A stretch of 20,725 bases of DNA from IMG/VR virus record IMGVR_UViG_3300027749_000545, positions 1 to 20,725 of that record; one strand, 5' to 3'. Origin of the DNA: a virus. Made by a program: the position numbers and the translations under genes. Numbering within the stretch: the first letter of the stretch is position 1; every line of letters begins with the position of its first letter. The notes below the pieces were generated by a model. It saw nothing but the letters and a program-made list of their open reading frames with translations, made no database searches and was not told the origin of the DNA. Positions 2,658-20,182 of this stretch are shown here, piece after piece.

Positions 2658-2664
2658 TATTTAT
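2658..2664 (-). promoter_or_regulatory. Late promoter core upstream of the glycine-zipper protein gene
   Basis: The minus strand reads TTGATAAATATAACACT and then ATG. The ATAAATA core overlaps the terminase stop codon by one base. Only 7 nt separate the core from the ATG at 2650. In T4 the late transcript starts several bases after this element, which leaves almost no leader and no room for a Shine-Dalgarno sequence. Confidence 0.6.
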
Positions 2665-4235
2665 CAATACATAGTTGATATAAAGGGCATGGGCTCAATT
2701 ACATTGTCTGAGTGATCTTTCATTTGACTGTCTAGTTCTGTGTAAAAACTCTGCAAAACCTGCATCATACGCACGGCCAGCAACATACTCATGACCAAGT
2801 CATCTGTTTCGCCTATTTTGGCGGCAAAACTTAGGCCAGAAGCCACAAAGGTTTTGAGTTCTGAGATCAAGGCAGAACTGTACACAGTCATTCTGTTGGT
2901 TTCTACGAGATTTTTGACTTTGGCACAGGCTGATAGTTTGCTCTTGTGTGTGGTGTTAAAGCCCTTGCGCATACGGCGGTTACTGCCGCTCATGTGCGGA
3001 TCTGACAAAAAGTAGCCCTGTATGTTTTCTTCGCCAAATTCTGCAATAGAGATCAAGCCTGCTTCGCCAATGGTGTTGTTTTCAATGCTGTAGTAGATGT
3101 TCTTGTCATTTTTCACAGTTTCATTGATGTACTTGCAAATGTCTGACAGGATACGTATCTGTTCCGGAATGGGTGTGCGATTGTGTGTCCACTCGCCCAC
3201 TTGACGTGTGGTGTTGGCTTCAAAGATTTGTATGGCTGCAGGGTCACCTCCGGTGCCTAATGACGGGTCTAATGCCACTACGTAGATACTTTCGGGCTTG
3301 ATGGCTTCGTACCAGCGCACATGTCCTGTGCGCTTCCAAGGGTCGCGACTTTCTAAATCTAGTAACTTGGCCGGAGCAATCAAGGTCTCATCATTGATAA
3401 TAAACTCACAACCGATCTCTCTGCGGAATCTATCATCGCCCAACTGCGCTCGCATGCTTTCGCCCCACTTTTCGTCACGGTCTGGGTGCTCTTGCCAGTA
3501 ACTTCTAAATGCTCGGAACCCATTCATGCCCAGTTCAGTTGGGTTGCCAAACTCGTCTATGCATTTGTTGGCACCTTTCCAGATCAACGCAAACTGATCT
3601 TCGTCTGAGTTGGGGGTACTTGTGATAATGGCCTTACCACCTGTGGCCAGCGTGGGTGAGATACTGGTCCAAAACTCAGTGGCAATGGTGGGTCGCACAA
3701 ACGCAAATTCGTCAGCGTACAGCAAGGTAATACTCATACCACGACCAGTTGTTTCAGTTGTGGTGGCTGATACTATTCGTGATCCGTTTTCAAAGTCTAT
3801 GGAGCCTTTGTTGTAGGAGGTCACACCTGCTCGAATATGATCTGGGCACAGTTCGTATGCAAATCTAATACGTTGCATGATTTCCTGGGCACCTGTGTAC
3901 TTGTGTGCGGCAATCAAAATTGTCGAGTCAGGAATGAACATGGCATACCAAAGAATATAGCCAGCGGCCGATGTTGACTTGCCGGTCTGTCGCGGCATCA
4001 TGGAGATTGAGTAGCGATTGTTGTGGTATGTTTCTATCAGTTTCTTTTGATAAGAGAACGGATGATACAGCATCTTGCCCTGTGTGGGATGCTGTATATA
4101 AAAGAAGTGGTTCAAGAAGTAGTGCGGTCCATCCTGAGGATCAGCACACGCAAGAAACTCCTGCAGTTGATCGTCTGAGAATGTTTGACGCCGGTATGGT
4201 GCTTTGACCAGTACGCCTTCTGGTGTGTTGTTCAT
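2664..4235 (-). CDS. terL: Terminase large subunit (T4 gp17 family)
   Basis: A 523-residue ATP-driven packaging motor and headful nuclease. The N-terminal ATPase has a Walker A motif at 82-88 (RQTGKST), a Walker B at 171-176 (LLYADE, catalytic E176) and a coupling motif at 205-209 (TSTPN). The C-terminal RNase H-like nuclease has the expected acidic residues: D323 in the ALDPSLGTGGD motif, E385 in SIENN, and D478/D479 near the end. T4 gp17 is about 610 residues, so this is a compact version with all key residues present. In T4 it works with gp16 at the portal. Here the gp16 gene lies about 7 kb upstream, separated by the internal-protein cassette. A 70-nt gap with no recognisable promoter separates it from the NUC nuclease gene, so it is probably read from the promoter near 5155. 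Confidence 0.97.
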   Translation of the reverse strand: MNNTPEGVLVKAPYRRQTFSDDQLQEFLACADPQDGPHYFLNHFFYIQHPTQGKMLYHPFSYQKKLIETYHNNRYSISMMPRQTGKSTSAAGYILWYAMFIPDSTILIAAHKYTGAQEIMQRIRFAYELCPDHIRAGVTSYNKGSIDFENGSRIVSATTTETTGRGMSITLLYADEFAFVRPTIATEFWTSISPTLATGGKAIITSTPNSDEDQFALIWKGANKCIDEFGNPTELGMNGFRAFRSYWQEHPDRDEKWGESMRAQLGDDRFRREIGCEFIINDETLIAPAKLLDLESRDPWKRTGHVRWYEAIKPESIYVVALDPSLGTGGDPAAIQIFEANTTRQVGEWTHNRTPIPEQIRILSDICKYINETVKNDKNIYYSIENNTIGEAGLISIAEFGEENIQGYFLSDPHMSGSNRRMRKGFNTTHKSKLSACAKVKNLVETNRMTVYSSALISELKTFVASGLSFAAKIGETDDLVMSMLLAVRMMQVLQSFYTELDSQMKDHSDNVIEPMPFISTMY

Positions 4236-4305: not shown

Positions 4306-5127
4306 TCAGTCGGCTGAGGCACTGGCGCCACACTTGGCTCTTTTTGCATTGGTTAGTGCTCCAAAATCCACTGGCCATTCTTTGCCTGGATCAAGTTCCT
4401 TGACATTCTTTGGAAAAGCAAATTTAACACCAGCAGTGGTTTCTATTTGTGAAATAGGTAAACGGAACCGGGTCAAGTCATTGCCCAGGTTAGGATAAGG
4501 TGCCACATGGGGAAACGCCCAGCCAGCCGTTTCGCCTGTGGCTTGATTGATCACAATCTTGTAAAAGCCATGTGGCACAACTACGCCTCGACCAATTTTC
4601 TTGTCTGTGGCATCATAAACTCCGCCAGCAATGATGGTGTACGACTGATTGCGTTGTACTGCCCAGCCACGAACTGATGTTTCCAACAATTTCCAGATGC
4701 CACGATTGAGTGAACCTGCCTGCGGGCTTATGTTGGTCATCAAGAATGACTCAAACTCAACTTGTGGATCCCAACTCAAGTCACCATCTGGGGCCATGTG
4801 CCCTTTGTCGTAGCCTGTGGCAGCATAATCATCTGGCGTGGCTCCACCCGAGACGCTTTGATCAGCGGCAAATGCATTGGTTCTAGCAACACAACCCAGT
4901 GCATTGGGCGGTGTCAGTGTGTAGGCCACATAGTTGGGCAACCTAGCCGCCGCATCATAGGCCACCAGGTATGCTTGGCGACAGATGGGTTGCAGTTGAC
5001 GTGCAGTTTGTGCAAAGCCGTAAGGCTGGTGCACCTGACATTGTGCAGGAGGATTTGGAACACGTTGTGTCCAGGCTTGCGCTGATAGACTCACAGCCAA
5101 GACCACAAGGGCAAGAATTCGTTTCAT
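4306..5127 (-). CDS. Secreted DNA/RNA non-specific endonuclease (NUC / endonuclease G family)
   Basis: A 273-residue protein with a Sec-type signal peptide: positively charged MKR, a hydrophobic core through residue 16, and a likely signal-peptidase site after AQA at residue 18. The mature part carries the beta-beta-alpha-metal nuclease signature: YDKGHMAP at 106-113 with general base H110 (a DKGH variant of the usual DRGH), then TNISPQ (N132) and LNRGIW (N141), which match the metal-binding region of Serratia nuclease and EndoG. Cysteines at 30, 49, 79 and near the C terminus fit an exported, disulfide-bonded enzyme. Such enzymes cut DNA and RNA without sequence specificity. It lies between the internal-protein cassette and the large terminase, behind a late promoter-like element, so it is likely made late and exported to the periplasm or medium. 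Confidence 0.9.
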   Translation of the reverse strand: MKRILALVVLAVSLSAQAWTQRVPNPPAQCQVHQPYGFAQTARQLQPICRQAYLVAYDAAARLPNYVAYTLTPPNALGCVARTNAFAADQSVSGGATPDDYAATGYDKGHMAPDGDLSWDPQVEFESFLMTNISPQAGSLNRGIWKLLETSVRGWAVQRNQSYTIIAGGVYDATDKKIGRGVVVPHGFYKIVINQATGETAGWAFPHVAPYPNLGNDLTRFRLPISQIETTAGVKFAFPKNVKELDPGKEWPVDFGALTNAKRAKCGASASAD

Positions 5128-5166: not shown

Positions 5167-5568
5167 TCAACGTGGATATCCTTTGAATCCACGCACAGGA
5201 CTCACTGTGGCCACATCAGGTGCTTCTTCACTGCCTTGTGTGCCAATACGCACAGCATCACTAGAGGGCATGTTCATGCTGTGTAGCGCATCGTCAATGT
5301 AGGTTTTAACGTGTGGATCATAACTCACGATAATCATGTCTTCACCAAACACACTTTCTGGTCCATCAAATGGCGGTACACCGTCTCGGGCACGTTGTGC
5401 GGCACCTTTGGCACCAGCAATGGCCACACCAAATCTATACTGTCGGTAAGGGTCATTGTTTTGTAGTCGAGGAATTTTAAAAGCACCAGGCAGGGCCAGG
5501 CCCACATCACGAGTGATTGTGCCTGTACGTCCTGGTTGTGATTCAGTGACAAACTCTCGGGCTCTCAT
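5167..5568 (-). CDS. Tagged internal-head-protein candidate, MRAREF paralogue 3
   Basis: A 133-residue protein, the third of three tandem paralogues. It begins MRAREFVTE-SQ, which resembles a T4 capsid-targeting tag with a prohead-protease site after E9 (V-T-E; the usual P3 residue is I or L). It ends SPVRGFKGYPR, a C-terminal signature shared with its two upstream neighbours. The middle (about residues 35-60) has NNDPYRQYRFGVAIA, clearly related to NNDAYHTYRLSVAIA of the middle paralogue. The start codon overlaps the stop of the previous gene as ATGA, so translation is probably coupled. Nothing suggests an enzyme; a small packaged protein is my inference from the tag. Confidence 0.85.
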   Translation of the reverse strand: MRAREFVTESQPGRTGTITRDVGLALPGAFKIPRLQNNDPYRQYRFGVAIAGAKGAAQRARDGVPPFDGPESVFGEDMIIVSYDPHVKTYIDDALHSMNMPSSDAVRIGTQGSEEAPDVATVSPVRGFKGYPR

Positions 5569-5579
5569 CTGGGATATCC
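5555..5579. repeat. 25-bp junction repeat, copy 1
   Basis: Identical to 5935-5959. It spans the overlap of two adjacent paralogues: it encodes the C-terminal GYPR and stop of one gene and the MRARE start of the next. Copies are 380 bp apart, one gene length, so recombination between them would add or remove exactly one gene. Confidence 0.9.
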
Positions 5580-5948
5580 TTTAAATGGTCGTACTACGCT
5601 TTGATCATTGACAAAATTGGGTTCTTGACTGTTTATGGTTCCAACTAGACGTTTGCCGCCCGGAGTATCTGTCAATTTCAATGCTTGGTCTAGAATAGTT
5701 TCTACACTGTCATTGAATCCAGCCACAATGGCATTTTGTCCAAATGCACTCACACTGGCAAATTCAGGCATGCCATTGCCATATCCGCCTGCATCGGCCC
5801 TGGCTCGAGCAATGGCCACGCTGAGTCTGTAGGTGTGATAGGCATCGTTGTTTTTTATGCCTGGAAGAAAATAGGTATGTTGAAGCGGTTCCCCTTGTGA
5901 GTCCGGCAACTGCCCTAGTTGTTCTGTTATGAATTCTCGGGCTCTCAT
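5565..5948 (-). CDS. Tagged internal-head-protein candidate, MRAREF paralogue 2
   Basis: A 127-residue protein, the middle of the three paralogues. It begins MRAREFITE-QL, with I-T-E fitting the T4 gp21 cleavage rule (I/L-x-E) exactly. It ends VVRPFKGYPR. Its centre (residues about 31-48, NNDAYHTYRLSVAIARA) aligns with paralogue 3, and its C-terminal third (SVETILDQALKL) parallels HVKTYIDDALHS there. It overlaps both neighbours by ATGA, so the three genes form a translationally coupled set. No known catalytic motif is visible. Confidence 0.85.
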   Translation of the reverse strand: MRAREFITEQLGQLPDSQGEPLQHTYFLPGIKNNDAYHTYRLSVAIARARADAGGYGNGMPEFASVSAFGQNAIVAGFNDSVETILDQALKLTDTPGGKRLVGTINSQEPNFVNDQSVVRPFKGYPR

Positions 5949-5959
5949 CTGGGATATCC
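5935..5959. repeat. 25-bp junction repeat, copy 2
   Basis: Identical to 5555-5579, again across a paralogue stop/start overlap. A shorter, imperfect relative is present at the start of the first paralogue (about 6314-6328), where the preceding gene is unrelated. Confidence 0.9.
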
Positions 5960-6328
5960 GGCAAATCCTCGAACAGGACTGATTTTATGCACATCAGAAT
6001 TTTCAGAACTTTTTTGACCACTCACAATGTGCTCTGATTCGGCTCCGATGGTTTTTAACGCACCCTGAAGCATGTTGTCTTCTTCCTGGGTGTAGGGATG
6101 AGCAGTGTTGTATTTTTCTACCCAGGATGCAGGATCCATCTGGTCACGAGGTATGGGCTTGTTGGTCTTGCCATCATGCATGGCTGCGGCCATCATCACA
6201 CGATTCAAGTGATTGGTTCTATCATAGCCACCGTTGTCACGCATGCGCCAAGCAGATGGCATGGCGTTGTGATGGTCGCCAGGAATATCGCCTTTACGAT
6301 CTTCAGCAACAAATTCTCGGGCTCGCAT
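5945..6328 (-). CDS. Tagged internal-head-protein candidate, MRAREF paralogue 1
   Basis: A 127-residue protein and the first of the three in reading order. It begins MRAREFVAE-DR and ends SPVRGFAGYPR. Its middle differs from the other two and includes LNRVMMAAAMHDG (about 42-54), an SWVEKYNTAHPYT stretch near 68-80 and a DNMLQGALKTIGAE segment. I recall proteins of this form, with TAHPYT, from other aquatic phages, where they are unannotated. It starts 2 nt after the stop of the 108-residue gene. The tag suggests targeting to the prohead and removal of nine residues. Confidence 0.85.
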   Translation of the reverse strand: MRAREFVAEDRKGDIPGDHHNAMPSAWRMRDNGGYDRTNHLNRVMMAAAMHDGKTNKPIPRDQMDPASWVEKYNTAHPYTQEEDNMLQGALKTIGAESEHIVSGQKSSENSDVHKISPVRGFAGYPR

Positions 6329-6845: not shown

Positions 6846-7688
6846 TTACCAGTTACGGCATGACCAATAATTGGCACTGGTTCTTGGGCCGGGATTGTCA
6901 CAGTGATGTCTTGCTCTAAAACTTCTACGACGTGCAGGGTTGCTCTTGTGAATACGCATGTTGGGGTCACCAAAGTTGACTTTTTTGATGTTGCCAGTTT
7001 TGGGATTGCGAACATACACCTTGTATTTTTTTACATCTCCGGACATTTTCTTGCCCAAGGACACTTCACGACCGTGATACTTGGCTTCGTCGATGCTTTC
7101 GTCTAGTTCATCGCCTGCAAACTCCACGTGCTCATAGGGGCCAAATGGTTGACCGGTGCGACTGTCTATGGAGTCATCATGATCACCATGGTTGTAGTAG
7201 TCATCGCTGTAGATTTCTACACCGTCAAAATCTGAGTTGTAGTCAATGTGATACTTGCGAACTTTACCATCGCCACACACAATGCCGCGATTCAAAATCT
7301 TTTCCACTGCCACTTGTGCGTCAATGATCCGGCTCATGGGTGAGCCGCCTTGTTTCACAATGTCCTGCAACATTCCAATGTCGTGATTATACCAGGCACT
7401 GGCCAAGGCTTTCAAATAGTTGCCACTGTCACCGCCGTTGTCGGGGGCAAACTCTCTGAGTATCAACGATTCCATCACAGCATCACTGGCACCCAATAGG
7501 CCCCACTCGTCCAGCAAGGCGTAGATGTTGTCAGTAGAGTCCAACAAGATGTCACCACGATCGTCCTGATCCATCACATAGGTTTCAAGCAAGGTACCAT
7601 CTGCCAGTTCAAAGGCAAACCCATCGCCTGTGAGTGGGCGATGTTGATGCAGTTCTGCTTCGGCTAGATAATCACGTAGTGTTTTCAT
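6846..7688 (-). CDS. Tagged head-protein candidate with a conserved C-terminal basic/Cys-Trp domain
   Basis: A 280-residue protein. I use the ATG at 7688 (MKTLRDYLAE-AE) rather than the one at 7709, which would overlap the upstream stop and hide the tag. The first ten residues closely resemble the T4 capsid-targeting sequence, with L-A-E before the predicted gp21-type cut. Residues about 15-190 are acidic with many Asp and include a DDYYNHGDHDDS stretch. The last 80 residues (from AKYHGREV, about 200) form a basic domain with VYVRNPKTGN, VNFGDPNM, RRRSFRARHHC and a WSCRNW end. I recall this domain as widespread at the C termini of phage proteins; I believe it has a DUF entry but cannot name it safely. 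A SIDE-AK boundary just before it could be a second processing site. The gene starts 1 nt after the 959-residue gene. Confidence 0.85.
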   Translation of the reverse strand: MKTLRDYLAEAELHQHRPLTGDGFAFELADGTLLETYVMDQDDRGDILLDSTDNIYALLDEWGLLGASDAVMESLILREFAPDNGGDSGNYLKALASAWYNHDIGMLQDIVKQGGSPMSRIIDAQVAVEKILNRGIVCGDGKVRKYHIDYNSDFDGVEIYSDDYYNHGDHDDSIDSRTGQPFGPYEHVEFAGDELDESIDEAKYHGREVSLGKKMSGDVKKYKVYVRNPKTGNIKKVNFGDPNMRIHKSNPARRRSFRARHHCDNPGPRTSANYWSCRNW

Positions 7689-7689
7689 G

Positions 7690-10569
7690 TTAGATCTTGA
7701 AGTTAGCAAACTCTTTCATGAGGCTTTCTTGCATTTTTTTATCGTCTTTGGGCTCGGGCTTTTGACCTGTGGCAGGCACGCCCATTTTCTTTTGCAAGTC
7801 TTTGCGCATGTCTTCGTCCGAGCCATGGCCCAGTTTCTCAAGGCCTTTTTTTACCACGCCTTTGACAGTGTCAACAACACCTTCTGCCACATCTTCTTGG
7901 ACATACGGCAGTGTCATGTTGTATTTTTGGAACAACTGTTTTAACATTTTGGCGTTAGCAAAGTCTCCTGCTACTTTAGAGTCAGGAGATCCGGTATTAG
8001 ATACCGTTTGCATTTGATTATAGTCTTTCTCAAACCCTGGATCTAATCTATTTTGCTGTTTCAAATCTTTTACTGTGTTAATCATTGATCTTAACTGGTA
8101 ATTTATTCTTTGAGCCTGGGCCATACTACCCACTGTTTGTCCAGCGGCTTGTTGAGGAGTATTACTGCCGGCGTCTTGATTTCCAGATGTTCCAGCATGA
8201 GCACCACCTGCTCCTAATGCCATCGATCCTGCCAATGCGGCAGCAGCCATTTTTTCTTTCCAGCCTTCATCTAACTCATCTTCTTCAATTGTGTCTTCCT
8301 TCATGGTGCGTTCCCATGGCTTGAGTTCTTGTTGCTTGATACCGGCCATTTCACGCAGTCTGTTAATTTCGCCAAACTTGTCCATGCCGTCAATCTGCAC
8401 ATCAGTGACAGGAATAGTGGCCATACCACTGGCCTTGGGCTTGTTTAAGCCACCAGAATATTGCATGGCATCATCACTGTATTCAGTGTTGGTAGGCCAA
8501 TTAGGTTTGTTTTGTGAGGCATCGGTATCACCATATGCTTCGTCCATCATGGTATCGCATGCACATGGAGATTGTCCACAATCGGGGCAAACGTCATCGC
8601 AACCGCAGTCGGTTGAGCCGCAGGCAGGGCAAGGCTCTTCATGACTGTGATCATGACCATGTGACATACCGCCACCCAGTCCTGCACGTGCCAACAACTG
8701 GGCCAGAGCCTCGGCATCCTCATCGGCTGCTGTCACAGTGATGTTCTTGTGTGAACCGTTGTCATCGTTGGTCATACTCACGTTGATGCTCATTGATTCA
8801 GCAATCATGTTTTCCAGTTTGCGATTCAAACTGTCGTAAATGCCCTTGCCAATTTGTACGCCACCTTTGGTGGACTTGACGGCATCACCACCAGTGGCAA
8901 CTGATCCACTAGTTGTAGTTTCCGCTACTTTCTTTTCTTTCTTTTTCTCATCATACTCAATGTCTTTGGTCACTCGCTTGCCGGCCTTTTCGGCTTTGGT
9001 ATCTTCGGAGCCACGCTTTGCACCGTGGATGCCATCTTTCTTTTTCTCATCATACTCGATGTCTTTGGCTACCTTACGGCCAGCACGTTCAGCACGGTTA
9101 TCACGGGTGTTTGTGGATTCTTCTTCCATGTCAATATTGTGGCTCATTTCATCACCGCGCTCGTGTTGTGTCTGCATGTAGTCATCCACTGCGGTCATCA
9201 TGCCTTCAATCTTGGTCAGTTTGGCCTGTACCCATTCTGGCAGGTCTTCTTTGTTGCTCAAAATCTTTTCCAAGGCTCGTGCATGACGCACAATGGTATG
9301 GATATCATCCTTGGCTGCATCGCCTTCGTTGCCATATTCACCTGTGTCATCCTGGGTGGCGCCTGGCATGATGCCTTCTTCTTTGATTCGGCCGCCTTTG
9401 TGCTTGTAGGCCTTGCCTGTCACACGCTCTGGACCTTTGTCGGCGCCTTTTGGACGTCCGGCTCGACGCTTTTCGCCTGTGGGTTGTGCATCTTCTTCAT
9501 CATCATGACGACGTGTGGCACGGACGCCAGTGGCAGTGGTTTCAATATCGTGACGTGCGCCGCGGCGAACATCACCAACCTTGGGAGTGCTCAGTCGACG
9601 CTTGACATCACGTTCCATGTCGTCAAAGCCTTCGTCGGCCATTTGTTTCTTGCCACCTAATGCACTACGCATGGCTTCGGCTGCTACGTCGCCTAGCATT
9701 TCTTCAACTTCTTGTTTGGCGCCGGCAATCTTGTCATTGAATGATTTTTTCTTGGCAAGGTCATTGGCACCCTGACCATCAGCCGCAAATTTTGGAACTC
9801 GTTTTCCGTTGACTGTGGTCATTGGCAGGCCACCTTCATCAATTTCATCTGTATCAAATGTCTGACCAAAAGCATTGAATTTTTGTTTGCCAGACTTTTC
9901 TGCGGCAGTATCTTGTTGCTTAATATACTCACCACGACTGACTTCATCAAGGTCGGCTTCAGTCACACCGGGTTGACCAGCAACGCCTTTGCCTTGACTG
10001 GGTTTCATCATTAATTTGCCTGTGCGATCATTGGTATGTTTTGCATCTTGATAGTAAGTATCTTTATAAACAACTGGTGTTTCTTGACCGTGATATGTTG
10101 GTTCGGTTCTTACAGCAAGTGAACCGGTGTTGTCAGCGGATGCTCTACCACCCTGAGGTGCAACACGATTACCATAACCAGTTGTTGTTGTATCCGCTCT
10201 GTTGGTGGCGCGAGTTTGTTTAAACTGTTTTGCTATAATGTCACGTTCGGCCTGATTCACTGGCGGACGTATGCCCGCGTTGCCTACTGTAAGACCGCGC
10301 ACTGCTTCATCCATGCCTTCCGAAGGATGGCGCAGTTTGTTCAGCACCGCACCTGCCACACGCTTACCGGCTGCTTTGCTACCATAACGCTGGCCTGCAT
10401 CGGCAGCAATTTTAGAGAAGTTCTTGCCTGGCTTGCCAATATCCTTACCGGCGGCTGCTTTCTTGGCTGAATAGTCACCAGTAGCACGTTCGGCAACTGT
10501 GCCTTCTGCTAGAGTTTGTTTTTGGCTCAGTTCAGCCATGCGCTTGTTGAGATCGTAAAAAAATGTCAT
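7690..10569 (-). CDS. Giant multi-segment protein, probable packaged internal head protein
   Basis: A 959-residue protein from the ATG at 10569 (MTFFYDLNKRMAE), which has AAGGA about 8 nt upstream; an ORF extension to 10734 runs through the previous gene and is not credible. The N terminus looks like a lengthened head-targeting tag, with LAE-G and VAE-R sites by residue 27. Residues 30-490 are basic and low-complexity with many Lys, Arg and Gly. Two copies of an AGRKVAKDIEYDEKKK-like unit lie near 490-545. A His-rich run (HGHDHSHEE) and a cluster of eight cysteines in CPAC, CGC, CPDC and CAC follow at about 636-672, a likely metal site. A short hydrophobic Ala/Gly segment sits near 767-789, and more VAE-G sites occur near the C terminus. 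No enzyme domain is recognised. Processing into several packaged peptides is possible. Confidence 0.8.
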   Translation of the reverse strand: MTFFYDLNKRMAELSQKQTLAEGTVAERATGDYSAKKAAAGKDIGKPGKNFSKIAADAGQRYGSKAAGKRVAGAVLNKLRHPSEGMDEAVRGLTVGNAGIRPPVNQAERDIIAKQFKQTRATNRADTTTTGYGNRVAPQGGRASADNTGSLAVRTEPTYHGQETPVVYKDTYYQDAKHTNDRTGKLMMKPSQGKGVAGQPGVTEADLDEVSRGEYIKQQDTAAEKSGKQKFNAFGQTFDTDEIDEGGLPMTTVNGKRVPKFAADGQGANDLAKKKSFNDKIAGAKQEVEEMLGDVAAEAMRSALGGKKQMADEGFDDMERDVKRRLSTPKVGDVRRGARHDIETTATGVRATRRHDDEEDAQPTGEKRRAGRPKGADKGPERVTGKAYKHKGGRIKEEGIMPGATQDDTGEYGNEGDAAKDDIHTIVRHARALEKILSNKEDLPEWVQAKLTKIEGMMTAVDDYMQTQHERGDEMSHNIDMEEESTNTRDNRAERAGRKVAKDIEYDEKKKDGIHGAKRGSEDTKAEKAGKRVTKDIEYDEKKKEKKVAETTTSGSVATGGDAVKSTKGGVQIGKGIYDSLNRKLENMIAESMSINVSMTNDDNGSHKNITVTAADEDAEALAQLLARAGLGGGMSHGHDHSHEEPCPACGSTDCGCDDVCPDCGQSPCACDTMMDEAYGDTDASQNKPNWPTNTEYSDDAMQYSGGLNKPKASGMATIPVTDVQIDGMDKFGEINRLREMAGIKQQELKPWERTMKEDTIEEDELDEGWKEKMAAAALAGSMALGAGGAHAGTSGNQDAGSNTPQQAAGQTVGSMAQAQRINYQLRSMINTVKDLKQQNRLDPGFEKDYNQMQTVSNTGSPDSKVAGDFANAKMLKQLFQKYNMTLPYVQEDVAEGVVDTVKGVVKKGLEKLGHGSDEDMRKDLQKKMGVPATGQKPEPKDDKKMQESLMKEFANFKI
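8941..8969. repeat. In-gene direct repeat, copy 1
   Basis: A 29-bp segment that matches 9040-9068 in 28 of 29 positions, 99 bp (33 codons) apart. It encodes KDIEYDEKKK in the giant protein; similarity at the protein level extends to about 20 residues on the N-terminal side. Confidence 0.85.
9040..9068. repeat. In-gene direct repeat, copy 2
   Basis: The partner of 8941-8969, one base different. The in-frame 99-bp period points to internal duplication within the giant protein gene. Confidence 0.85.
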
Positions 10570-10573
10570 GTTA

Positions 10574-11182
10574 TTATCCTTGAGGTAATGCACCAGTTGC
10601 TGGCTTGGGTTGACGCTTGATATTGTCGAACGGGCTCTTGTTCTGTGTGGGAATATCATTTGTGGTTTTTGCAGGAGGTGTCTTGCCCCCGGCCACAGTA
10701 AAGTCTGAACGATATTTGTTCCGCAATACTGCATGTTGATAGGGATTGGCCGAGTAGTCTTGACTCAGGGCCCGTTGTTCTGCATCAGGTGCAGGATAAT
10801 CTGTGTCGGCAATTAGGTCCTGATTCTGTGCTGTGATGTCCGCAATCTCTTTGGCAATGCTGTCATCATAGGCCTGTGTCTGCAGAGTGATAAAGTTGGG
10901 ATTGAGACCCAACAACTGTGCCAACTGCTTGATCTGTGGTTCAATGGCAGGGTATCTAAAACTCACGTCCATGAAAGTGACACTTTGATTTTCTGCGCCC
11001 GGAAAGTCTTTTTGTAGTTTTTGCACAGGTGTGGTTTTTGGGCGACTCATACTGACAATGTCAAACTGAGCCATTTTTTCTTCGAGTTGTTTCAAGAACT
11101 CTGGAGGCACTTCACCCAGGACCTTGATCCTGTAGTCGTATGTGCGAGAAGATTCTGCGAGATATTGATGAAATGTTTTCAT
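10574..11182 (-). CDS. Tagged internal-head-protein candidate (MKTFHQYLAE)
   Basis: A 202-residue protein. It begins MKTFHQYLAE-SS, the clearest match in this window to the T4 capsid-targeting tag (MKTYQEFIAE in T4 internal proteins), with L-A-E before the predicted cut. Residues 12-115 form a mixed alpha/beta domain (YDYRIKVLGEVPPEF, then SVTFMDVSFRYPAIEPQI) that I recall from other aquatic phages without a function. The last 60 residues are Pro/Gln/Lys rich and probably disordered. The start has AGGA 8-9 nt upstream and a late promoter core at 11200-11206. It is the first gene of the cassette and ends 4 nt before the giant protein gene. Confidence 0.88.
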   Translation of the reverse strand: MKTFHQYLAESSRTYDYRIKVLGEVPPEFLKQLEEKMAQFDIVSMSRPKTTPVQKLQKDFPGAENQSVTFMDVSFRYPAIEPQIKQLAQLLGLNPNFITLQTQAYDDSIAKEIADITAQNQDLIADTDYPAPDAEQRALSQDYSANPYQHAVLRNKYRSDFTVAGGKTPPAKTTNDIPTQNKSPFDNIKRQPKPATGALPQG

Positions 11183-11199
11183 GTGGAGATCCTATATGA

Positions 11200-11206
11200 T
11201 ATTTAT
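11200..11206 (-). promoter_or_regulatory. Late promoter core before the internal-protein cassette
   Basis: The minus strand reads AATAAATATC, 17 nt before the ATG at 11182, with a Shine-Dalgarno-like AGGA in the leader. The core overlaps the stop codon of the small terminase gene (11203-11205). It would drive the whole run of tagged genes down to 5167. Confidence 0.65.
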
Positions 11207-11691
11207 TCTTTTTTCACGATTGAACGTCTATCGCCGATCAAGCGATCTAGTATTTCGTTGCGATCCAGCACATGGCCTTGCCCGGCATGAGTGGGTGCAT
11301 CGTCGGTGGGATTTTGTTGATCCAGTCGGGCTTTTTTCAACTGTAGATCGATCACCTTGAGTTTTTTGTTAAGTTTGGCTGTTTTGGCTGTGAGTGCATG
11401 GCCCAACATTGTGCCGGCTACGCCAAAGATTTCTGCGGCAAATCTGGAATCGACATTCATGCCTAAATCCATCAAGTCATCAAAACTCTTGGTTGCCTTG
11501 GCCGCTAGTTCGTCCATTTCGGCGTCACTGGCACTGAGATCGCGCACACCGGGTAGGGCCACATCAATTTTGTCAATGGCGTCGTCAATTTCGGCAATGT
11601 AGGTACGTGTTTCTTCTACCGTGGGTGGATCTTCGGGCTCAGTGCTGTTGTTTGGGGGTAAATCAAAGAGTTCTTCTAATTTGCGGGTCAT
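11203..11691 (-). CDS. terS: Terminase small subunit (T4 gp16-like)
   Basis: A protein of about 162 residues if it starts at the ATG at 11691 (MTRKLEELFDLPP); an in-frame ATG at 11757 would add 22 residues and overlap gp4 by 35 nt, so it is less likely. The composition is almost wholly helical. An acidic N-terminal part is followed by two long helices (roughly 55-130) with the pattern FDDLMDLGMN, FAAEIFGVAGTML, AKTAKLNKKLKVIDLQLKK, typical of the oligomerising coiled-coil core of T4-type small terminases. It regulates packaging by the large subunit and recognises DNA ends or concatemers. It follows the gp4 gene and is probably translated with it. Confidence 0.8.
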   Translation of the reverse strand: MTRKLEELFDLPPNNSTEPEDPPTVEETRTYIAEIDDAIDKIDVALPGVRDLSASDAEMDELAAKATKSFDDLMDLGMNVDSRFAAEIFGVAGTMLGHALTAKTAKLNKKLKVIDLQLKKARLDQQNPTDDAPTHAGQGHVLDRNEILDRLIGDRRSIVKKE

Positions 11692-11722
11692 GCCATATTT
11701 ACCGCGAACTCTGTGGTGCAGG

Positions 11723-12154
11723 CTATTTGCTACCGTTCTTGAACATTTGATCTTCATTTATGACGCGGAAGATCAGTCCGTTTTTCCTGGCCCACAATGT
11801 CGCAGAATGCCATTTGGCATGATTGACAGCAACCACAGCACGATCTCGCGGCGACATTTTGCCTTCAATCACGCTCTGCTTTCGGGGTTTGATTTCTATC
11901 AGTTCTGCTCGCACTTGATTGCCTCGAGTGCGATAGGTCATCAGGATATCAGGTATATATTGGCTCTGCTTGCCTGTGATGGGATTACGGTAAGGTATGG
12001 CTATGCTTTCGCTGGCCCACTGTAGCACCGCATCATTTGAGTCACAGAATTTAAAGAACGCATGCTCCCAGCCGGATCTGTATCTGGGTGCGCCTTTGCC
12101 CACATACTTGGCAGGATTCATCAAGGTATAACTGCCATTGGCAAAACGACTCAT
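11723..12154 (-). CDS. gp4: Head completion protein (T4 gp4/gp50 family, TnsA-like nuclease fold)
   Basis: A 143-residue protein close to the T4 gp4 length (about 150). Family features visible are RSGWEHAFFKFCDSN (27-41), W46 with ASESIAIPY (47-55), NPITGKQSQYIPDILM (57-72, with Asp69) and ELIEIKPRKQ (84-93). The E...PD...EIKP arrangement is the TnsA/PD-(D/E)XK-like active site. In T4 the protein is needed to finish DNA-filled heads before tail attachment. It overlaps the 122-residue gene by ATGA and precedes the small terminase gene. Confidence 0.88.
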   Translation of the reverse strand: MSRFANGSYTLMNPAKYVGKGAPRYRSGWEHAFFKFCDSNDAVLQWASESIAIPYRNPITGKQSQYIPDILMTYRTRGNQVRAELIEIKPRKQSVIEGKMSPRDRAVVAVNHAKWHSATLWARKNGLIFRVINEDQMFKNGSK

Positions 12155-19570: not shown

Positions 19571-20182
19571 ATGAATACTTATCCACTTAGATTTTATGTT
19601 TACGCATATCTGCGTAAATCAGATTTAACCCCGTACTATATTGGAAAAGGCACAGGAAGTAGAGCCTGGGCCAAACAGCACAATGTCAAAATTCCTACTG
19701 GTGCTAATAGAATTGTAATTGTAGAATCCAATCTTACCAACATCGGCGCTCTTGCAATTGAGCGACAATTGATAAGATGGTATGGTCGCAAAGATTTAGG
19801 AACAGGAATACTTCGAAATTTAACCGACGGTGGAGACGGCACGTTTAATCTTGCTCCGTCGGAAAAAAGAAAATTGGCTTGTATTAAATCTAATCAAGAA
19901 AGAATTTGGAGTACTATATCTAAAGATAAACTTAGAAAAGCCAATCTTGGGAAAACCTATTCTGCATCAACTAATTCTAAAAAAGGTACCACTAAGGATC
20001 GGCATTGGGTGCATAATACGCAAAAATCGATTCGCGTTACCTCCAATGATCTTGAAAAGTTTTTAATGGAGGGATGGTCCAGAGGTAGGCCAAAATATCA
20101 ATGTTCACATTGTGAGACATTTTTTGATCTCATGAATTACAAAAAATATCACGGCGACAAATGTAAACAAAAAATCAATTAG
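19571..20182 (+). CDS. GIY-YIG homing endonuclease with a C-terminal zinc finger
   Basis: A 203-residue protein. The GIY-YIG domain is at about 7-90: VYAYL (10-14) stands for the GIY part, YYIGKGTG (22-29) for YIG, then R31, catalytic E64 in AIERQLI and N83 in [11 protein letters not shown] middle region has NLGKTYS and a WVHN...GWSRGR module (about 145-173) seen in other phage homing endonucleases as a DNA-binding helix unit. The last 26 residues hold a CCHC zinc finger (C178, C181, H194, C198). The gene is visibly more AT rich and richer in Lys codons than its neighbours, and reads against them, which suggests a mobile insertion. AGGA lies about 10 nt before the ATG. Its stop overlaps the stop of the convergent gene. 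Confidence 0.92.

Follow-up and report, generated by a model that had tools for sequence, protein, structure and literature searches.

Three short genes between positions 5,167 and 6,328 of a 20,725-base virus record (the window, i.e., the whole stretch of DNA that was analysed) encode proteins which share their starts and ends and differ strongly in between. The original prediction explained this format by exchangeable payloads, framed by an N-terminal tag and a second targeting or docking element at the C-terminus. This raises the question of whether the middles are really unrelated to each other, what each of the conserved ends may contribute, and which kind of phage protein is organized in such a way.

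The gene array and its surroundings

The window represents a late-gene region of a T4-like phage, with T4-type genes for a head-tail adaptor, a sheath, two tail tubes, and the terminase large subunit (TerL) recognized by Pfam and PHROG. TerL (2,664–4,235, minus strand; Pfam PF03237 and PHROG terminase matches) is located downstream of the array, and the order of genes around the array is conserved among relatives. The array, likewise on the minus strand, is transcribed in the order copy 1 (P0001; 5,945–6,328; 127 aa), copy 2 (P0002; 5,565–5,948; 127 aa), and copy 3 (P0003; 5,167–5,568; 133 aa), with every start overlapping the preceding stop by 4 nt (ATGA). The proteins begin with MRAREFVAE, MRAREFITE, and MRAREFVTE and end with RGFAGYPR, RPFKGYPR, and RGFKGYPR, respectively; the ORFs and blastp thus confirm the predicted tandem of proteins with a common start and an F(A/K)GYPR end. 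Over the full length, blastp aligned copies 1 and 2 with 28% identity (E 3e-6), copies 1 and 3 with 32% (E 3e-11), and copies 2 and 3 with 38% (E 9e-26). Once the ends were stripped, a direct alignment survived only for copies 2 and 3 (34%, E 2e-15), which makes copy 1 the most diverged of the three, as had been expected. The three genes are diverged tandem paralogues, probably translationally coupled, in an uncultured T4-like water phage.

Two further proteins of the window feature tag-like starts. One is encoded upstream of the array (6,846–7,688, minus strand) and combines the start MKTLRDYLAEAE with a different body that matches phrog_7595 across its C-terminus; the other (10,574–11,182, minus strand) starts with MKTFHQYLAESS, which is kept in relatives as MKxFxxYLAES. 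In addition, several neighbors deserve mention in their own right. The gene at 4,306–5,127 (minus strand) encodes a DNA/RNA non-specific endonuclease (PF01223), the start of which resembles a signal peptide; it is present in 43 of 79 related loci, usually between the array and TerL and once on the opposite strand. A protein with a TnsA-like endonuclease N-terminal domain (11,723–12,154, minus strand) lies within the tail-gene block and is conserved in relatives. The sole clear plus-strand gene candidate of the region (19,571–20,182), which encodes 203 aa and matched nothing in Pfam, could represent a homing-type insertion. A 1014-aa ORF (7,690–10,734, minus strand) combines stretches of repeats and low complexity with a cysteine cluster and several LxE/IxE sites in its interior; it matched no family, and its real start is possibly more internal. 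The array proteins were also considered as a small terminase, an idea dropped in view of their tag and their occurrence in several copies; a better, though weak, candidate for this function is located at 11,203–11,757 (phrog_445, E 0.011).

Relationship of the middle sections

Searches of uncultured virus contigs revealed 47 loci with relatives of copy 3 (subfamily 2; 50–87% identity) and 34 loci with relatives of copy 1 (subfamily 12), copy 2 being assigned to subfamily 1. The 104 unique tagged proteins from both searches formed a single blastp-linked group at E 1e-10. A body-only HMM, from which tag and end had been removed, found 352 ORFs in 177 loci. Tags were present in 349 of these: the tag pattern recognized 328, and inspection of the sequences added 21, which had either a GTG start with RAxEF behind it or a variant such as MKITEVIIE. 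The remaining three ORFs were cut at the 5' contig edge; the tag pattern for choosing members was loosened between scripts, which alters the counts of untagged members. Moreover, ends-stripped subfamily profiles aligned with each other in hhalign at E 6e-4 to 2e-30, compared with E 0.07–0.9 in column-shuffled controls, the value of 6e-4 being obtained when the subfamily of copy 2 was compared directly with that of copy 1. Body identity between subfamilies amounts to about 12–34%. As the ends-stripped middles stay homologous across relatives, the middle is one diverged family; swapped payloads are ruled out by the profile comparisons, and this part of the original prediction was not borne out.

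At the level of structure, a single conserved fold of the middle, which sequence homology speaks for, was predicted with modest confidence only. The AlphaFold models reached pLDDT values of 78 and 67 and pTM values of 0.45 and 0.37, and predicted copies 3 and 1 feature two helices at corresponding positions. Foldseek against the PDB, run with a model of modest confidence, yielded no known fold and nothing with E under 1. Matches to ribbon-helix-helix antitoxins in the PDB (Foldseek; 27–33 columns only, E 4–9) were not used, and a partial PDB profile match to an S-layer protein (E 0.0034) was judged to be due to chance. T4 internal proteins (Ip) were absent from the PDB matches by profile and by Foldseek, Ip1–3 not being compared directly. 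In BFVD, the uncharacterized protein A0A6J5KNQ7 (123 aa), which stems from an uncultured Caudovirales phage, was matched over the full length (Foldseek, 24% identity, E 6e-5) and probably belongs to the family; the TM-score of this match is low (0.35), so that sequence contributes to it no less than fold.

Altogether, 421 distinct family ORFs were collected from uncultured viruses, and their common format is seen much more often than expected by chance. One to four copies occur per locus and also in each of 20 larger related records, all of them fragments that were picked for holding a family member. The ATGA overlap was found in 158 of 182 adjacent pairs of family neighbors. A search of 50,697 annotated phage records with four divergent members yielded no relatives, nor did searches of plasmids and bacterial genomes with copy 3. 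P0001–P0003 matched no PHROG or Pfam family above cut-off, apart from chance-level matches, and three further family members likewise matched no PHROG family.

The N-terminal tag and T4-type head genes

The tag of copy 1 (MRAREFVAE; 6,302–6,328, minus strand) is a putative propeptide for capsid targeting that would be cleaved after VxE, as suggested by its sequence, its portability, and the T4 gp21 motif L/I-x-E. Sequence and portability point to the same role for the tags of copy 2 (MRAREFITE with IxE; 5,922–5,948, minus strand) and copy 3 (MRAREFVTE with VxE; 5,542–5,568, minus strand). A DNA scan for MRAxEFIxE, unbiased with respect to the body, assigned 51 of the 95 matches listed to the family and 44 to other bodies. 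These non-family bodies comprise 21–482 aa among the matches listed, some of them cut by contig ends, and recurrent ones include HExxH-type and DUF6321-type proteins. The claim that the N-terminal tag is a targeting element is supported by this portability, since occurrence on unrelated bodies is expected of a capsid-targeting tag. A recurrent protein with an MRAxEF start and an end like YPGSPIEAMADMLAGKYIKIYG was observed in L112, L328, L347, L358, L363, L364, L370, and G003:18046; L112 offers its full-length reading, which contains an HExxH motif, and the protein is a candidate for capsid-targeted, metalloprotease-like cargo.

Among 401 members, tag position 7 is occupied by I (265), V (72), or L (59), i.e., in 396 of 401, and E9 is present in 401 of 401, both features being partly selected for by choosing members with a loose tag pattern. 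Valine at P3 (72 of 401, including copies 1 and 3 of the window) is a looser fit outside the strict T4 motif L/I-x-E. As judged from sequence, the tag matches the T4 capsid-targeting format, i.e., a short N-terminal propeptide ending in [IVL]xE.

An S77 (gp21-type) prohead protease was detected above cut-off in seven of the 20 related records, all fragments; the other 13, all of them fragments as well, gave no protease match. In the records that were read, gp22-like scaffold and capsid genes adjoin the protease gene, and the N-terminus of the capsid protein contains LxE/IxE motifs.

The C-terminal tail

The tails of copy 1 (SSENSDVHKISPVRGFAGYPR; 5,948–6,010), copy 2 (SQEPNFVNDQSVVRPFKGYPR; 5,568–5,630), and copy 3 (SEEAPDVATVSPVRGFKGYPR; 5,170–5,232), all on the minus strand, follow the scheme SxE...SPV...FxGYxR with invariant S, E, S, F, and G columns and are restricted to the family. 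An unbiased scan for SPVxxFKGY listed 103 matches, of which 97 belong to the family according to the HMM, three are truncated and family-like, and three are due to chance, and among the matches listed none of the 44 tagged non-family proteins carries the end motif. Among the matches listed, the N-terminal tag is hence portable, and the C-terminal motif is bound to the family apart from the chance matches. The tail is not universal within the family either, as some members end with NKYGV, DWMKK, KDHRKK, NPGPIVLNRK, or NSG after a conserved SxE...SPV or SPH.

Tail agreement was computed for all pairs, per subfamily pairing, in sliding windows (plain and GC-matched shuffles), and at the codon level. 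In adjacent same-genome paralogues with diverged bodies, tail residues agree more often than in shuffled pairs. The agreement was 0.646 compared with 0.521 in shuffled pairs when pairs with a member at least 80% similar to a kept one were removed (n = 56, p < 0.001), 0.652 compared with 0.481 after 65% de-duplication (n = 27, p < 0.001), and 0.548 compared with 0.393 after 55% de-duplication (n = 16, p < 0.001); at 45%, with five very distant pairs only, it was not significant. When the pairs were split by subfamily pairing, eight strata retained five or more pairs after de-duplication, and p was below 0.03 in seven of them. In the two largest pairings, window scans identified the tail as the strongest window, with z-scores of 4.8 and 3.6 that GC-matched shuffling lowered to 2.6 and 2.8. 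The N-terminal tag showed no within-genome excess in these scans and a weak one in de-duplicated pairs at some thresholds (p 0.009, 0.18, 0.047, and 0.048). Amino-acid agreement within genomes is thus raised mainly in the tail, and a small number of independent events may stand behind it. Gene conversion as its origin is unsupported, as codon identity at shared residues rises within genomes by no more in the tail (0.479 vs. 0.451) than it does in the tag (0.539 vs. 0.505).

Given the agreement of tail residues among divergent same-genome paralogues, the tail may serve as a docking element, and its probable contact is a partner shared by all copies within a phage. The idea of a second targeting or docking element consequently holds in part: the within-genome agreement favors docking, whereas a general format is contradicted by the restriction to the family and the absence from tagged non-family proteins. 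An additional cleavage at the invariant SxE, as in phiKZ-like phages, is unlikely, since the protease of relatives is of the S77 T4 type and their capsid propeptides contain LxE/IxE motifs.

Proposed function and alternative explanations

By analogy with T4, the array is likely (probability roughly 0.7) to represent a tandem family of small internal-protein-like head proteins that are packaged by means of the tag, cleaved, and ejected. The comparison with T4 Ip is drawn because the tag ends in [IVL]xE and occurs on unrelated bodies, and because the S77 protease was found in seven of 20 related records. The nine-residue tag MRAxEF(I/V/L)xE would bind the scaffold core and bring the protein into the prohead, where the prohead protease would remove it after the glutamate. 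The mature protein of about 118–124 residues would remain with the DNA and then be ejected into the host like T4 Ip1–Ip3, and the copies may diverge because different host targets are met. The SxE...SPV...FKGYPR tail would be a family feature retained on the mature protein, with the scaffold, the inside of the capsid, the route of ejection, or a sibling copy as candidate partners.

It is less probable that the same tag logic brings the proteins into the prohead for them to act there as core or assembly factors in capsid assembly or DNA packing, comparable to T4 gp67, gp68, and IPIII, instead of being ejected effectors. T4 IPIII, which influences head assembly (PMC9026906), offers a precedent, the paralogue-wide tail agreement fits a common structural partner, and every related record holds at least one member (each was chosen for having one), in most cases close to TerL and tail genes. 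Nevertheless, a copy number varying from one to four and a body identity as low as about 12–34% between subfamilies are unusual for a core assembly part.

Returning to packaged and ejected internal proteins as the preferred reading, a further refinement is conceivable, which is rather doubtful at present: the family might possess two separable address signals, the cleaved N-terminal prohead tag and a retained tail that co-adapts with a genome-wide partner and sets the position or the exit of the mature protein.

The conserved ends could furthermore reflect an effect at the DNA level. The 25-bp block GGATATCCCAGATGAGAGCCCGAGA, comprising end codons, ATGA overlap, and start codons, is identical at the copy 1/copy 2 (5,935–5,959) and copy 2/copy 3 (5,555–5,579) boundaries on the minus strand and might be kept by gene conversion, junction recombination, or a role in ribosome binding. 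An AAAGGA at 5,577–5,582 overlaps the block and resembles a Shine-Dalgarno sequence for copy 3. Furthermore, internal copies favor GGA after the lysine codon of FxG: AAAGGA or AAGGGA occurs in this part in 54 of 94 K-containing internal copies vs. 21 of 97 terminal ones (Fisher p 4e-7). Because of this preference, the end codons probably double as the ribosome-binding site of the next gene. Still, F.GY is retained in 118 of 132 terminal copies, which have no family gene behind them, and the rise in codon identity is no larger for the tail than for the tag; the DNA role is thus additional and not the cause, and an explanation of the ends by it alone is very improbable. Finally, a two-ended cargo format with tag and tail as transferable packaging elements around exchangeable payloads, as suggested by both ends being conserved in three copies, by the transferable tag, and by tail residues agreeing within genomes, is largely refuted and hardly tenable, given the homologous middles and a C-terminal motif that, among the matches listed, is family-restricted and absent from tagged non-family proteins.

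Significance and comparison with known systems

The family occurs in hundreds of uncultured virus contigs, and four divergent members are unmatched in the annotated phage records searched. If the proteins are T4-internal-protein-like, they would be candidate counter-defense proteins delivered by environmental phages at infection, and MRAxEFIxE would offer a simple search key for many more delivered proteins.

Among known systems, head paralogue family A of phiKZ and SPN3US (PF12699) is similar in featuring a variable number of paralogues with identical N-termini in diverged copies and in being processed by the prohead protease (PMC5694885), the counterpart of this processing being putative here. 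In contrast to the array proteins, the SPN3US members have a size of about 31 kDa and propeptides of over 100 residues, and PF12699 was not matched above the Pfam cut-off by the window copies.

The leaders of T4 internal proteins are N-terminal, comprise 10–19 residues, and target the prohead core, with gp21 cutting after L/I-x-E (PMC9026906). T4 Ip1–3 are ejected, inhibit different Type IV restriction enzymes, and have only the leader in common (PMC12373910), so that homology to them is no requirement for belonging to this functional class; unlike them, the window copies constitute one homologous family with a conserved C-terminal tail. Besides, T4 internal proteins are described as basic, whereas the mature window proteins, with a pI of 6.1–6.7 (family median 7.2), are not especially so. 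Nevertheless, the family resembles T4 Ip1, Ip2, and Ip3 (IPI–IPIII) in the small size of its proteins and the short N-terminal leader ending in a putative [ILV]xE protease site, in the several copies per phage, in a leader common to unrelated bodies, and in the T4-type head genes with a gp21 protease, seen here in some of the related records.
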